From Actinomycetes bacterium (GTDB lineage: Bacteria; Actinomycetota; Coriobacteriia; Coriobacteriales; Atopobiaceae), in NCBI GenBank assembly GCA_029546925.1, contig JAKPQM010000085.1, forward strand, positions 1 through 64,000: a DNA stretch of 64,000 nt. Direction: 5' to 3'. Made by a program: the position numbers and the translations under genes. This document shows, one piece after another, positions 294-7,488 of the stretch (its first letter is position 1; each line of letters opens with the position of its first letter). The notes beneath the pieces are model-generated. The model was not told the DNA's origin. It did no database searches and saw only the letters and a list, made by a program, of their open reading frames with translations.

Positions 294-1265
294 TCACGCT
301 GCTGAGGCGATCTTCTCCTGGTACCAGCTGTAGAGCTCTTCCCAGTTCTGATAACCGCTATCGCCGCGGTGGTCGACAAGGTCGAACGTGGCGGAGAGGT
401 ATTCGCCTACAAACGAGGTGACCTTTTGGGCGCCTGCGAGGTTGAGGTGGTCGCCGCCATCGAACGTCTCGGTCATCCAGTCGATCTCCACCTTGGCGGG
501 ACCTACATTCATATCGATGAACTCGACATCCAGCTCGATCGCGAGCTCTTGGATGGCATCATGGCGCTCGGATGTCCAGTTGATAGAGCTGGAAACGTTC
601 ATCAGGATGGGGGTTGCGCCGATGGAGCGGCAGTACTCGACCATCAGGCGCAGATAATATCTGGCGGTGGCGGGGAGATAATTTATCCGGTAATTACCGC
701 TGCCGGTTCTATGGGGATCGAACTCCTCCTCGATGCCCGTGTTGATACGGAAACCTTTCAAGTTGTCTGAACACGTGTAGCTCGGCTGCAGGAACAAGTC
801 GTCCTGCGTCAGGCTCTTCCAGCGGTCGTGGAACCTGAGCACGGGGAACAGTCCTTCAAGCTCCTTCGAGATCAAGTCGTTTATGGAGAACGCCGAGAAG
901 GCCATGTTGGTCTCGATGATGACGACGCGCGGTGCCTGGGAACGCGTCGCCCTGCGGAGCAGAGCGTTCGCGTAGGGGAGGCGCTGGCCTGAGGTGGCGC
1001 AGACATATGAGGTGATGCCGTGCTCCCCCCATATCTGCAGGGGCGAGAAGGCGCTGTATGCCTCGCTGTCGCCGATGAAGAGCACGTCGATGGTGTTCGC
1101 GGGCTCGCCGAGGATGCCGTTCGCCGCAGCATCGATCATCCCCGCTTCGTCGGAGCTGTCCTTGGGCTGGAAGATGGCCGAGAGGCCGAGCAGGAGCGCT
1201 ATCGTCACGCCGACGATGGCGAGGATGTTCCTGAGCGTTCGCAGCGTTTCGCCTCTCGATTCCAT
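294..1265 (-). CDS. Membrane-anchored SGNH/GDSL-family protein (DltD-like role)
   Basis: A 323-residue protein. One N-terminal membrane segment (about residues 12-32) is followed by an extracytoplasmic SGNH-type domain: block I appears as FIGDSEAYSAF and the C-terminal block as GGDHLNLAG, providing the Ser and Asp/His of a hydrolase or transferase triad. The start is ATG with AGGAGG upstream, and that site overlaps the end of the MBOAT gene, so the two are co-translated. In Dlt, alginate and PatA/PatB-type systems an SGNH partner works with the MBOAT protein to place an acyl group on an exported polymer. I infer that role here. It is the last gene of a four-gene operon. The true substrate is unknown. 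Confidence 0.7.
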   Translation of the reverse strand: MESRGETLRTLRNILAIVGVTIALLLGLSAIFQPKDSSDEAGMIDAAANGILGEPANTIDVLFIGDSEAYSAFSPLQIWGEHGITSYVCATSGQRLPYANALLRRATRSQAPRVVIIETNMAFSAFSINDLISKELEGLFPVLRFHDRWKSLTQDDLFLQPSYTCSDNLKGFRINTGIEEEFDPHRTGSGNYRINYLPATARYYLRLMVEYCRSIGATPILMNVSSSINWTSERHDAIQELAIELDVEFIDMNVGPAKVEIDWMTETFDGGDHLNLAGAQKVTSFVGEYLSATFDLVDHRGDSGYQNWEELYSWYQEKIASAA

Positions 1266-1273
1266 CCAACCTC

Positions 1274-2860
1274 CTAGAACTGCGCATAGAGGGGGTCAAC
1301 GGGGGCATACCCATACCCGTATGCGCCGAAGACGACGATGAGCAGGAAAAGACCGATCAGCACGCTCCATCTGGCGGGAATGGGCAAAGATGCAGCCGGT
1401 CTGCAGATGCCTTTACCGCATTCCCGGGCAATGCCGATAGCCAGCACGAGCACGAGCATGGCAGCCGAGATCAGCAAGTCGTGTCCGTCGAGGCCGAGGG
1501 CGAGGAACGTTCCGTCGGCGAACGATTCCAAGGAGAACGATCCGACCAGCGTGGAGAAGAGCTCTATGCCGCGCGGAAGCCCCTTGGCGCGGAAGAACAG
1601 CTCGCCAACGAAGATGACGACCAAGGTGCGCAGCGTCTGGAACACGCGGTAGGGTGCGTGGGCCCGGTCGATTCCCCAGCGCTCGGAAAGATCCTGCGCA
1701 ACCGGTTCGATAAGGCCGCCTGCCATGATTATCACGAAGTAGTACATGCCGAAGAACAGGTACTGCATACCCGCACCATGCCAGAGGCCGTTCAAGAACC
1801 ATACGCAGAACAGGGCGATCCCGCCTGAGAGGAGCGGGCCGTAGCGGTTGCCGCATGCCTTGCGCGCCGCCGAGGTGAGACGCTTGCATCCCTTCGATAG
1901 GGAGATGGGATAGTATACGTAGTCCTTGAACCAGGCGCCGAGCGTGATGTGCCAGCGCTGCCAGAACTCCGACGCCGTCCTCGAGAAGAAGGGCTGCCTG
2001 AAGTTCTCAGGCAGCCCGACATTGAAGATGCGCCCGACACCCAGCGCCACATCCATGGCACCCGAGAAATCGCAGTAGAGCTGGATCGTGTAGAGGATGG
2101 CGGCAAAGGCGATTATGCCGCCGTCGTAGGCAGCCTTTCCATCGAAGACGGTTTCGACGAGCAGGTTGAGGCGGTCGGCGATGATGATCTTCTTGGCCAT
2201 GCCGTAAAGGATCCGCAGCGCTCCCTCGTAGAGCCTGCCGCGCTTGATGGGCTCGCCTGCGTAGAGGGCTTCGGCGGTCTGGCCGTAGCGGCAGATGGGT
2301 CCTTCCATGATCTGCGGGAAGAAGCAGAGATAGAGCATCAGGCGACCGAGATGATGGTCGGCGGGAATGCTCTCGCGATAGACGTCCGAGAGGTAGGAGA
2401 TGGCCATCAGCGTGTAGAAGGAGATGCCGATGGGCGCCCTTATCGGGGGGATGCCGATAGGGGCATCGACCCCGAACGGCACCAGCACCGCCCTCGTTAT
2501 CTCGCAGAAGAATGCCAGGTATTTCGACAGGAAGAGCATGAGCAGGTTGGCGACGATTCCTGCGGCGAGTACGAGCCGCATGCGGCGTCTGCAGCTTGCG
2601 CGCGCCTCTTTCTTGGGCGTCCCCTCCACTATAAGCCGGTCCCGACGTGCGATGAGCGCCTCTATGCCCAAACCGCACGCATACACGACGAGGGCCGATG
2701 CGAGAAACATCAGCGTGAGCTGTCTGCTGAGGTGCCAGAGGAAGAGCAGGCTGGTGCCTAAGAGCGCCGCCCATCGGAAGCGCTTCGGCGCAACTGCATA
2801 GAGAAGGATCGATAGGGGGAGGAAGATGAACGAGAACGTTATGGTGAAATACGAGGTCAT
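1274..2860 (-). CDS. MBOAT family O-acyltransferase (AlgI/DltB-like)
   Basis: A 528-residue polytopic membrane protein with about ten or more hydrophobic segments. Hallmarks include FWQRWHITLGAWFKDYVYYP and the catalytic histidine motif NGLWHGAGMQY. YLCFFPQIMEGPI and YCDFSGAMDVALG are also typical of the AlgI/DltB branch. These proteins take an acyl group, often from a carrier-protein thioester, and pass it across the membrane for O-acylation of a polymer. It lies 7 bases after the acyl carrier protein gene and just before the SGNH gene, so carrier, MBOAT and SGNH form a Dlt-like relay. The length of about 500 residues is normal for the family. Confidence 0.9.
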   Translation of the reverse strand: MTSYFTITFSFIFLPLSILLYAVAPKRFRWAALLGTSLLFLWHLSRQLTLMFLASALVVYACGLGIEALIARRDRLIVEGTPKKEARASCRRRMRLVLAAGIVANLLMLFLSKYLAFFCEITRAVLVPFGVDAPIGIPPIRAPIGISFYTLMAISYLSDVYRESIPADHHLGRLMLYLCFFPQIMEGPICRYGQTAEALYAGEPIKRGRLYEGALRILYGMAKKIIIADRLNLLVETVFDGKAAYDGGIIAFAAILYTIQLYCDFSGAMDVALGVGRIFNVGLPENFRQPFFSRTASEFWQRWHITLGAWFKDYVYYPISLSKGCKRLTSAARKACGNRYGPLLSGGIALFCVWFLNGLWHGAGMQYLFFGMYYFVIIMAGGLIEPVAQDLSERWGIDRAHAPYRVFQTLRTLVVIFVGELFFRAKGLPRGIELFSTLVGSFSLESFADGTFLALGLDGHDLLISAAMLVLVLAIGIARECGKGICRPAASLPIPARWSVLIGLFLLIVVFGAYGYGYAPVDPLYAQF

Positions 2861-2867
2861 AGGCGGT

Positions 2868-3113
2868 CTAGTCGAGATCCTCCTCGACTAGGCGGTCGAT
2901 CATGCCCGCGATGGCCGCTGCCGAGTTGAAGTTGTCGGCTACGATCTCCACGGCGGGGATGTCGACCTCGAACTTATCCTCGAGATCGGCAACGAGCGCG
3001 ATCATGGTAAGCGAATCGATGCGGCGGTCGTCGATGAGTGTTGTGCAGCTCTTGAAATCTACGCCCGGGCAGAGATCCTCGAGCAATTCGATGATGGCAT
3101 CCTCGGTACTCAC
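2868..3113 (-). CDS. Acyl/aminoacyl carrier protein
   Basis: An 81-residue acidic protein of the phosphopantetheine carrier family. The attachment serine lies in RRIDSLTMIALV (DSL motif, near residue 34), followed by FEVDIPAVEI, as in ACP and DltC proteins. It would need a 4'-phosphopantetheinyl transferase encoded elsewhere. It sits between a PLP decarboxylase and an MBOAT acyltransferase, with a GGAAAGG ribosome site upstream. The context suggests it holds an amino acid or its decarboxylated product as a thioester rather than working in fatty acid synthesis. No adenylating ligase for loading it is seen nearby. Confidence 0.9.
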   Translation of the reverse strand: MSTEDAIIELLEDLCPGVDFKSCTTLIDDRRIDSLTMIALVADLEDKFEVDIPAVEIVADNFNSAAAIAGMIDRLVEEDLD

Positions 3114-3137
3114 GGCAATCCTTTCTCCGTTCGGCCT

Positions 3138-4352
3138 CTACTGGAAGGCGTTGATGGGGTCGGTGGGGATACGGTCGCGGATGAGGCGCATCTCTCCCGA
3201 TGCGTCGGTCAGGTAGATGCGCGGAAGATCGCGGCTGAGGAAAAGCGAGATGCCCTCGGTCATGCAGTATGCTCCCGCGTTTGGGAAGACCAGACGATCG
3301 CCTATCGCAAGATCGGATCCTCCGAACTGTTTGATGAGGATGTCGTTGGACGTGCAGAGCGATCCGCAGACAGTCCAGATAGCAGGCTCGGCGGCATGGC
3401 GCGTGGGTACGGCGTGGCATACGGGAGGTGTGAGGGCGAGCTCGTGCCCGTAATAGCTGATCTGGTGTCTTCCGCCATCGACGATGGCGTAGCTATGCCT
3501 GCGGTTGACCTTGGTGTCGATGACCGTGGTCACATAGGTTCCGCACGATGCGGCCATGGCGCGGCCCATCTCGAGGATGACCGTGCCGTTGAATCGCAGG
3601 GACGAGAGCGACGTTCTCAGGGCACCAAGATACTCGCGATCGCGGGCACTGCGGCGAGCGCCATCCTGCTCGCTGTAATCGACGGGGAGGCCCGGACCGT
3701 ACTCGAGCTCGAGCACCTCGGCCCCGCACTCCCTGCCGATGGACTCGATAAGCTTGTCGAGCTTTTCCAGCTCGCGGGTGATCCTGCTGGGCGAGCTCTT
3801 CTGGGTTCCCGAGAAGAACTGGATACCCCTGAAGTCGATATGCGGCTTGTTCCGATGCCCGCTCATGAGCTGCTTGGCCGCGGAAGCGTCCATGCCGAAC
3901 TGGTTCCCGCTGGTGATACGCAAAAGAACGGGGATCCGCACATCCATCTCCTGTGCCAGGGATTCGAGGAGTGCGAACTGCTCGGCCGATTCGACCGTGA
4001 AACGGTGGATTTTGGAAGGGGAGGAGATGAGCTCGCGCATGTGGGCGGGATCCTTGTTGATGCCCGAGATGGTGAGTCGTCCGTGGGGGATGCTGTTCTT
4101 CTGGCAGATACGGTACTCACCCGGTGAGCAGACTTCCAGAAACTCCGCTTCGCGGCAGGCCGCTTCGAGGATGAAAGGGTTCGCCTTCATGGCGTAGCAG
4201 AGGACGGTGTCTTCGGGAAGCGCTTCTCTGAGAGAGCGGATACGACGCCTGACCTCGCTCTCGTCGAATACGTAGAAGGGGGTCTCGCCTTGCCCGATCA
4301 TGCTCTGGTATCTCTGGCCGAGTACGATTATCACGTCCCTTGTCACGTGCAT
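3138..4352 (-). CDS. Fold-type III PLP-dependent decarboxylase (LysA/BtrK-like)
   Basis: A 404-residue protein of the alanine-racemase-fold decarboxylase family (diaminopimelate, ornithine and BtrK-type enzymes). The PLP lysine is in VLCYAMKANPF. The C-terminal half has GSLCTSNDIL and FPNAGAYCMT, the usual active-site pair (Cys and Tyr) of this family. It heads the operon with the acyl carrier protein. In butirosin synthesis the related BtrK decarboxylates a glutamyl group while it is bound to the carrier BtrI; this neighbourhood suggests the same chemistry. A free diaminopimelate decarboxylase is less likely because no lysine genes are near. The ATG start follows a hairpin with no clear ribosome site; residue 18 (Met) is an alternative start. 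Confidence 0.8.
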   Translation of the reverse strand: MHVTRDVIIVLGQRYQSMIGQGETPFYVFDESEVRRRIRSLREALPEDTVLCYAMKANPFILEAACREAEFLEVCSPGEYRICQKNSIPHGRLTISGINKDPAHMRELISSPSKIHRFTVESAEQFALLESLAQEMDVRIPVLLRITSGNQFGMDASAAKQLMSGHRNKPHIDFRGIQFFSGTQKSSPSRITRELEKLDKLIESIGRECGAEVLELEYGPGLPVDYSEQDGARRSARDREYLGALRTSLSSLRFNGTVILEMGRAMAASCGTYVTTVIDTKVNRRHSYAIVDGGRHQISYYGHELALTPPVCHAVPTRHAAEPAIWTVCGSLCTSNDILIKQFGGSDLAIGDRLVFPNAGAYCMTEGISLFLSRDLPRIYLTDASGEMRLIRDRIPTDPINAFQ

Positions 4353-5414: not shown

Positions 5415-6905
5415 ATGCAGCTCAATCTATCGAACATCGAATACTGCTATTCCCAAGCGGAGGAACCCATCCTGCGCGGTATCACGGCAACCTTTCCGCA
5501 GGCTTGGACCGGCATCGTGGGCGATAACGGCTGCGGTAAGACCACGCTCGCGCGCATCGCCTGCGGCCATATCGCACCCGATGCCGGCAGCGTGGGACCC
5601 GCGCTGGTATGCACCTACTGTCCGCAGGATGCGACGATCCCACCCGACGGTTTGGAGGACTTCGCCGCTGCCTATGACGGCAACGCGGTGCGCCTGCGCC
5701 GGGAGCTCGGTCTCGAGGACGACTGGCCATGGCGCTTCGGCACGCTCTCGGGAGGCCAGCAGAAGCGCCTGCAGATAGCCTGCGCCCTATGGTCGGAACC
5801 CGATGTGCTCGTCCTCGACGAACCCACCAATCACGTGGATGCCACCACACGTGCGGCGATCGCCCGCGCGCTCGAAGGCTTCGCGGGCATCGGCATCCTC
5901 ATCTCGCATGATCGCGAGCTGCTCGACCGCCTGTGCGCGCAATGCCTGTTCATGTCGGACGGAAGCGCCGTTATGAGGCCCGGCGGCTACACGCAGGCCT
6001 CTGATCAGGCAATGCTCGAGCGCATGAGCGACCTGCACGCACGCGAGGAGGCGCGGCGCGAGAAGAAGCGTATCGAATGCGAGGCGCGGCGCAGGCGCGA
6101 GGTGGCGGCGCGCAAAGAGGGCAAGAAGAGCCTGCGTGGCATCGACAAGCATGACAGCGATGCACGGGCCAAGAAACGGGCCGCCATCGTCTGGGGCACC
6201 GACGGCATCGCCGCCAAACAGTCGGGTCGCATGGGTGCGCGCCTCGAGCGGGCATCCGAGCGGCTCGACCAGATGCGTGTCGAGAAGCGCTACGATGCCG
6301 ATATCTGGCTCGATGCCACGCCGAGCCGGCGTCCCGTGTTGGTGAGATCGGAGGCCGCGGATCTTGCCCTCGGCGAGCAGATACACCTTGAGCTGCCGCC
6401 GCTCTACATCTCGCGCGACGACCATATCGGCCTTACGGGCGATAACGGCAGCGGGAAGACCACGCTCGTGAAGCATCTGGTCTCCCGTATCCCGGCGGGC
6501 GTACGCGTGCTCTACATCCCGCAGGAACCGAGCGCTGCACAGCAGCAGGAGACACGCGAACGCCTGCACACCCTATCGACCAGCGACCGGGGCCGCGTGC
6601 TCTCGATCGTCGCCCAGCTCAACTCCGAGCCGGAGCGCATCCTCGAAGGGGACGTGATCAGCCCAGGCGAGTTGCGCAAGCTCATGCTCGCCCTCGGCAT
6701 CCTCGATGGTCCTGAGCTCATCATCATGGACGAGCCCACCAACCATCTGGACCTCGGCTCGGTCGAGGCGCTCGAACGGGTGCTCGCCGCATACCCCGGT
6801 GCGCTGCTCGCGGTATCGCATGACGCGGCGCTTCTCTCCTCGACGACCGGCATCACCTGGTCGATCAGGCGGAGCGGTCCGGATGCATTCGTGTTGACAA
6901 TATGA
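5415..6905 (+). CDS. ABC-F family ATPase
   Basis: A 496-residue protein with two ABC ATPase domains on one chain and no membrane segments, which defines ABC-F. Domain 1 has Walker A GDNGCGKTT (about residue 36), signature LSGGQ (111) and Walker B VLVLDEPTNH (131). A long basic, arginine-rich linker follows. Domain 2 has GDNGSGKTT (about 342), a degenerate signature SPGEL (about 415) and LIIMDEPTNH (about 435). ABC-F proteins bind the ribosomal E site; some give antibiotic resistance, others aid translation, and sequence alone does not settle which. The start at 5415 is preferred over an upstream in-frame codon at 5352 because GAAAGGATA precedes it. Confidence 0.85.
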   Translation: MQLNLSNIEYCYSQAEEPILRGITATFPQAWTGIVGDNGCGKTTLARIACGHIAPDAGSVGPALVCTYCPQDATIPPDGLEDFAAAYDGNAVRLRRELGLEDDWPWRFGTLSGGQQKRLQIACALWSEPDVLVLDEPTNHVDATTRAAIARALEGFAGIGILISHDRELLDRLCAQCLFMSDGSAVMRPGGYTQASDQAMLERMSDLHAREEARREKKRIECEARRRREVAARKEGKKSLRGIDKHDSDARAKKRAAIVWGTDGIAAKQSGRMGARLERASERLDQMRVEKRYDADIWLDATPSRRPVLVRSEAADLALGEQIHLELPPLYISRDDHIGLTGDNGSGKTTLVKHLVSRIPAGVRVLYIPQEPSAAQQQETRERLHTLSTSDRGRVLSIVAQLNSEPERILEGDVISPGELRKLMLALGILDGPELIIMDEPTNHLDLGSVEALERVLAAYPGALLAVSHDAALLSSTTGITWSIRRSGPDAFVLTI

Positions 6906-7063
6906 GATGGTGCTCTTGGGATGCGGTGCGATGGCAGCGGCGATAGGGGCATGGTCGCAGCGGGATCGTTGGAGGATGCCCGCTTCATCCTAGCCGAGTT
7001 GCTCGGCGAGTCCGCAGCCTGCCCTGCTCCAAGGCCATTAATCCATGATTAGAGGATCGATTC

Positions 7064-7133
7064 TGCTATAACAATTGCCATAACAATGATTGATAGCTAA
7101 TATATTGTTTAATCACGTTAATAACAATGATTG
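7064..7133 (+). promoter_or_regulatory. AT-rich hipBA promoter/operator region
   Basis: An abrupt AT-rich island in GC-rich surroundings. It has an extended -10 (TGCTATAAC, 7064-7072) and repeated half-sites: ATAACAAT at 7068-7075 (as ATAACAATT), ATAACAATGATTG at 7080-7092 and again at 7121-7133, and the inverse ATTGTT at 7104-7109. Such repeated AT-rich half-sites are expected of an autoregulated HipB operator. The preceding part 6906-7063 shows no gene. Confidence 0.5.
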
Positions 7134-7140
7134 GATAAAC

Positions 7141-7488
7141 GTGCGGATAACCTTCCTCTCCTCAAACGAGCAGATATTGTCCGAGCTGGGCGACCGCATA
7201 CGAGCTGCACGCATCGATATGCCGCTCACGCAGGATGAGCTCGCTGCGCGGGCGGGTGTGTCGATCAGCACGGTCGCCAAAATCGAACGGGGCGAGGATG
7301 TGCGTTTCTCGAGCATGCTGGCTATTCTCCGCGCCTTGGGGATGCTTGCGAACGTCGATATTCTCGTGCCCGAGGAGCGTGTGCGCCCCTCCGATATCGC
7401 CCGTACAGGCCACAGCCGTAAACGCGCGTCATCTGCCCGCTCGGCGAGGGATGTCTCGTCCGCATGGACGTGGGGCGACGGCCGATGA
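7141..7488 (+). CDS. hipB: HipB-like XRE-family antitoxin/repressor
   Basis: A 115-residue protein with a Cro/C1-type helix-turn-helix: LGDRIRAARIDM, LTQDELAARAGVS, ISTVAKIERGED. It precedes hipA and overlaps it by four bases (ATGA), the usual HipBA order. HipB binds its operator, with HipA as corepressor, and neutralises the kinase. I chose the GTG at 7141; a TTG at 7090 is also open, but it would place the start inside the operator repeats. The C-terminal 35 residues are rich in Arg and Ser with no recognised fold and may be the flexible tail that contacts HipA. Confidence 0.75.
   Translation: MRITFLSSNEQILSELGDRIRAARIDMPLTQDELAARAGVSISTVAKIERGEDVRFSSMLAILRALGMLANVDILVPEERVRPSDIARTGHSRKRASSARSARDVSSAWTWGDGR

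Follow-up and report, generated by a model that had tools for sequence, protein, structure and literature searches.

Which acyl group reaches the cell surface through an operon that joins a pyridoxal phosphate (PLP) decarboxylase to a small carrier protein, an acyltransferase of the MBOAT family and an SGNH transferase, and how is the carrier loaded when no ligase gene stands beside it? The operon lies at positions 294-4352 of the window, that is, the whole stretch of 64,000 nucleotides analysed here (bases 1-64000 of contig JAKPQM010000085.1, our contig C31) from GCA_029546925.1, a genome of 2.4 Mb in 142 contigs of an Actinomycetes bacterium of the Atopobiaceae. The question touches on the D-alanylation performed by the Dlt proteins, which governs Gram-positive surface charge and resistance to cationic peptides and makes Dlt a drug target. 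The explanation that we favour, and consider rather probable, is that the operon belongs to a family of ligase-decarboxylase-carrier-MBOAT-SGNH envelope-acylation systems, has lost its ligase and operates through the four steps proposed below. The surface polymer would probably receive an omega-amino acyl ester of the beta-alanyl or 4-aminobutyryl (GABA) type, where we infer both the substrate and the acceptor.

The operon consists of four intact open reading frames, separated by gaps of just 7-24 bases, which agrees with the original prediction that they form a single unit:

3138..4352, minus strand: fold-type III PLP decarboxylase, BtrK-like, 404 amino acids, with a Pfam domain; PLP lysine Lys56, motif Cys333-Thr334-x-x-Asp337
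2868..3113, minus strand: acyl carrier protein, 81 amino acids, PP-binding; phosphopantetheine site Ser34 in the motif DSL
1274..2860, minus strand: MBOAT acyltransferase, 528 amino acids; catalytic His361 (LWHG), C-terminal PLYAQF with Tyr525
294..1265, minus strand: membrane-anchored SGNH/DltD-like transferase, 323 amino acids; Ser67 (GDS), Asp269/Asp272 and His273

Three of the products score above the Pfam cut-off (Orn_Arg_deC_N/Orn_DAP_Arg_deC, PP-binding and MBOAT). For the carrier, the top NCBIfam model is DltC, yet the match remains under the cut-off (29.1 versus 68 bits).

The distribution of these genes was followed at two scales. A search with the decarboxylase took in 101 related genomes, 23 of which encode the enzyme, and when the decarboxylase alignment was run against 84,980 species genomes, at least 552 stretches encoding relatives came up; the locus counts reported here refer to the best 80 of these, and the remaining 472 of those listed lie outside the counts and may include more distant enzymes. 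Two arrangements recur in the neighbourhoods of the decarboxylase genomes. In layout A the order is ligase, decarboxylase, carrier, MBOAT and SGNH, often preceded by a two-component system (response regulator and kinase), and in layout B it is MBOAT, SGNH, ligase, decarboxylase and carrier. The five genes stand together in the best 80 loci except where the contig stops, the absences of carrier, MBOAT or SGNH coinciding with contig ends. The hosts of these loci are Clostridia, Coriobacteriia, Erysipelotrichia-type genera, Acetobacterium and one strain labelled Streptococcus suis. The operon is thus co-conserved in dozens of genomes, and this neighbourhood survey, together with the gene set, bears out the proposal of a Dlt-like acylation system.

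A second part of that proposal, that the decarboxylase takes the place of the ligase, did not survive the survey. In 78 of the 80 loci a DltA-like ligase gene immediately precedes that of the decarboxylase, and both exceptions, one of them in G002, the nearest species that has the operon, start at a contig end; since ligase and decarboxylase occur together, the one is no substitute for the other. The window operon is layout A minus its ligase. A search for a ligase or a ligase remnant adjoining it returned just weak matches at chance level, and the two-component genes are likewise missing beside it. In the source genome the operon has lost its ligase gene, and the enzyme is, as had been predicted, encoded elsewhere, at a locus on contig C71:

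11745-10171: MBOAT
10184-8823: SGNH
8813-7308: ligase
7295-7053: carrier, with no decarboxylase in the locus

This ligase is the only one of its kind in the genome, is 60-63% identical to the nearest layout-B ligases and has the same pocket as its relatives. G002 presents the same split: its four-gene operon begins about 240 bases past a tRNA-Lys gene, with no ligase in between, and a locus similar to that of C71 is found elsewhere in the genome. In a further genome (G099), decarboxylase and ligase are on different contigs, both of which are short. The most economical interpretation has the C71 ligase supplying the window operon in trans.

What the ligase activates can be approached through its binding pocket. 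The comparisons rest on alignments of 106 ligases, 101 decarboxylases, 103 full-length MBOATs and 22 SGNH relatives, and ligase residues are numbered according to Bacillus cereus DltA, the sequence of which was confirmed from 3fcc. Asp197 is kept in 106/106 ligases; Met201 is replaced by Lys and Val301-Ala302 by Cys-Asn, again in 106/106, and Cys269 by Ser in 105/106. In surfactin synthetase, a Lys at the equivalent place reads the side chain of Glu, and the K239E exchange shifts the choice to Gln (PMC11355689); a Ser at the place of Cys269 is one of the determinants by which VinN selects 3-methylaspartate, which it activates as a beta-amino acid (PMC11253843). Because of this Lys and this Ser, the substrate is likely to be an acidic amino acid. 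Of the marks of a VinN-type beta-amino acid ligase, the Ser, at VinN's A301 position (105/106), and a bulkier residue at A236 (Val in 102/106) are present, but the shortening of the beta13-beta14 loop is not. The choice of the activated carboxylate is deduced from the decarboxylase, which needs an alpha-carboxylate left over. By its sequence the enzyme is DltA-like but not DltA: the C71 ligase scores 237.5 bits against the DltA model TIGR01734, for which the cut-off is 559.85. A side group of three loci (L098 in G056, L099 in G053 and L100 in G032) consists of MBOAT-SGNH-carrier operons without a decarboxylase, whose ligases have Ser both for the amine-binding Asp197 and for Lys201, and Asp-Ile-Cys at 301-303; they may form another variant, one loading a substrate that lacks an alpha-amine.

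The decarboxylase, likened to BtrK in the original prediction, indeed has BtrK (2j66/7ru7) as its best sequence match in the PDB and hence as its closest solved relative. Its fold matches diaminopimelate (DAP) decarboxylases, BtrK and SbnH, and it stays well below the cut-off of the exosortase-associated model TIGR03099 (160.3 versus 478.45 bits). As in the BtrK/VinO type, the residue after the catalytic Cys is neutral in 101/101 aligned relatives (Thr in 95, Ser in 6), and the gene is flanked by ligase and carrier in 78/80 loci.

The delivery of the group would fall to the MBOAT and its SGNH partner. The MBOAT matches the DltB structures 6bug and 8jem and keeps their fold and His, but reaches 132 bits against a cut-off of 375 for the DltB equivalog TIGR04091. 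Its C-terminus, PLYAQF, has Pro for the first Phe of the motif FXYXXF; the form xxYxxF is found in 100 and xxYANY in 3 of the 103 relatives, so that the shuttle Tyr is present in 103/103. In PatA, the acyl group is handed to the SGNH partner by way of a C-terminal tyrosine; Dlt has this motif on the microprotein DltX, carrier-fed Dlt having DltX and CoA-fed systems the fused motif (PMC12148441). The present MBOAT family is carrier-fed with a fused shuttle motif. Since the MBOAT has its own shuttle Tyr, DltX is not needed, and the gaps of the window operon leave no room for a separate DltX gene. The SGNH protein is weakly recognized by sequence (E 0.009); its AlphaFold model (pLDDT 91.8) matches in Foldseek the TesA-type SGNH hydrolases and the DltD structures 6pfx, 6o93 and 3bma, although DltD, with E 2.7e-5 and a TM score of 0.41, is not the best match. 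G65-D66-S67, D269 and H273 are invariant in the 22 relatives. The traits of an MBOAT-SGNH envelope acyltransferase, namely His361, the C-terminal shuttle Tyr and a partner of SGNH fold, are all found here. As to the acceptor, an LtaS-like enzyme is encoded on C122 and a poly-glycerophosphate transferase-like gene is present at the far end of the window, which makes phosphate polymers plausible acceptors. The third MBOAT of the genome is of the AlgI type (L038, C15, 7305-8723, minus strand, ending in NPFIYFQF) and, with its 461-residue neighbour (5910-7295, minus strand), probably represents a separate O-acetylation pair.

In the mechanism that we propose, the C71 ligase would first adenylate an acidic amino acid, with the side-chain carboxylate of Asp or Glu as the likeliest site, and load it on Ser34 of the carrier. 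The BtrK/VinO-type decarboxylase, as its family and residues suggest, would then act on the loaded carrier, stripping the bound residue of its free alpha-carboxylate so that a net positive omega-aminoacyl group, beta-alanyl or 4-aminobutyryl, stays behind as the thioester. In the third step, predicted from a conserved motif of published function, the MBOAT would transfer the group over the membrane to its own Tyr525, acting in DltX's stead, and finally the SGNH protein would accept it on Ser67 and pass it on as an ester to a surface polymer, for which a teichoic acid of the LtaS type is the most plausible candidate.

Several observations weigh against this mechanism. The order in which loading precedes decarboxylation rests on analogy: VinO decarboxylates its substrate only once this is loaded on the carrier, whereas IdnL3 acts on free beta-glutamate, giving 3-aminobutyrate (PMC11284099). 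The ligase alignment does not show the shortened beta13-beta14 loop that marks beta-amino acid activation in VinN, and the carriers of the window and of C71 differ. Furthermore, four genomes (G003, G031, G052 and G056) hold the same ligase pocket without such a decarboxylase, so the product of the ligase may be usable without decarboxylation, or else the pocket has another meaning; as the pocket shows no difference with and without decarboxylase, it is by itself no proof of a decarboxylation step. In the ligase tree the enzymes of these four genomes are nested among those of decarboxylase-bearing clusters, which suggests repeated loss of the decarboxylase, and the undecarboxylated amino acid may be used where it is lacking. 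An alternative order, in which a free amino acid is decarboxylated first and the ligase loads the product, has the precedent of IdnL3/IdnL1, and gene content alone does not decide between the two. We nevertheless regard it as unlikely, given that the invariant Lys of the ligase pocket suggests a second carboxylate still in place when the ligase binds, that BtrK, the nearest relative, works on a carrier-bound substrate (a property taken from the enzyme name in the PDB match) and that several genomes retain the ligase without the decarboxylase.

Rather improbable, in our view, is a lysinylation pathway, in which the ligase would activate one end of DAP and the decarboxylase remove the other carboxylate, so that a lysyl carrier is formed and lysine is esterified to the polymer. 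DAP does offer a free second carboxylate, the product would likewise be cationic, and the enzyme belongs to the DAP decarboxylase superfamily, with 156 bits against TIGR01048 (cut-off 297.9). However, the Arg of IRPxxY and the Glu of CExxD, with which DAP decarboxylases grip the distal end of DAP, are gone in all the aligned relatives, the latter being replaced by the Thr or Ser described above, and both are kept in the genome's own LysA, encoded beside dapA on C57. The same absence argues against an enzyme acting on free DAP or ornithine, the finding that had been named in advance as fatal to the carrier-based reading, and an assignment of the window gene as the housekeeping LysA was rejected for it and for the presence of the true LysA.

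In the favoured reading, the window operon is an active member of the family. All four genes are under purifying selection, as indicated by a ratio of nonsynonymous to synonymous substitutions (dN/dS) of 0.22-0.36 against G002, the closest relative, at a dS of 0.7-1.1, and the frames and active-site residues are preserved in the two species. The least probable of the readings, namely that the operon is an inactive, decaying remnant and C71 performs the surface acylation, could draw on the loss of the ligase and two-component genes from its flank and on the same-genus G003, which carries a C71-like locus alone, but this conservation speaks against it.

Comparison with known systems places the operon outside the Dlt family by the features tested. 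Dlt (DltA, DltC, DltB, DltD and DltX, for teichoic acid D-alanylation) likewise unites an adenylating ligase, a small carrier, an MBOAT and an SGNH/DltD-like transferase in one Gram-positive operon; the present system has a decarboxylase in addition, a ligase pocket altered at Met201 and Cys269 and a shuttle Tyr fused to the MBOAT with no DltX, and all its components fall far under the Dlt equivalog cut-offs. The VinN/VinO/VinL module of vicenistatin and the FlvN-type macrolactam starter modules share the AMP ligase, PLP decarboxylase and stand-alone carrier that yield a decarboxylated aminoacyl carrier, but their product feeds a polyketide synthase rather than an MBOAT-SGNH export pair. By analogy, the system may work like Dlt joined to a VinN/VinO/VinL-type module. 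BtrJ/BtrK/BtrI of butirosin has the Cys-Thr motif in common with the window decarboxylase, but the product is an antibiotic side chain; to our knowledge, BtrJ is not a DltA-like ligase. The TIGR03098/TIGR03099 pair with its carrier, in exopolysaccharide (exosortase A) loci, has the same gene order of ligase, decarboxylase and carrier, but no MBOAT or SGNH is annotated within 8 kb. An example is the ligase-decarboxylase-carrier cassette L206 on a Sinorhizobium meliloti plasmid (CP050561.1), whose exopolysaccharide-type surroundings include glycosyltransferases but no annotated MBOAT. Acetylation by PatA/PatB and AlgI-type MBOAT-SGNH pairs has the C-terminal shuttle motif on the MBOAT itself and an SGNH partner, but uses acetyl-CoA, without carrier, ligase or decarboxylase. 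No description of a system of MBOAT/DltB, SGNH, decarboxylase and carrier was found in the open-access texts searched, which is weak evidence of novelty; the system is apparently widespread and undescribed.

More tentatively, and with somewhat less than even confidence, we propose that in many gut Clostridia and Coriobacteriia a carrier-based pathway takes the place of surface D-alanylation: decarboxylation would generate the omega-amino acid, beta-alanine or GABA, in situ, and the product would be joined through an ester bond to a polymer resembling teichoic acid. No ligase above the DltA cut-off was found in 22 of the 23 genomes tested; the Streptococcus encodes a true DltA as well as the operon ligase. 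The system would thus substitute for Dlt in most of these genomes, and in one it exists beside Dlt without being redundant. The operon of this strain (L157, SSHP-D) is complete, from response regulator and kinase through ligase, decarboxylase, carrier and MBOAT to SGNH, and lies about 27 kb from the canonical DltA. If the proposal is true, the surface chemistry and immune signals of dozens of gut-associated Firmicutes and Actinobacteria, mostly lacking canonical DltA, have been wrongly interpreted, and one machine, which could be rebuilt in vitro, unites the in-line decarboxylation of a carrier-bound amino acid with MBOAT-SGNH export. Databases probably list many of its genes under the names DltA, DltB or LysA.

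Two further features of the window were observed:

159-276: three repeats of 14 bases each (TGCGGTAATCGCGA and variants), directly downstream of the operon at the contig end
51765-62144, plus strand: glycerophosphotransferase-like gene, nucleotidyltransferase-aminotransferase fusion (PntC-like), octopine dehydrogenase-like gene, amidohydrolase and nucleotidyltransferase-choline kinase-like fusion

The latter cluster looks as if it served to modify a surface polymer with phosphocholine or phosphonate.

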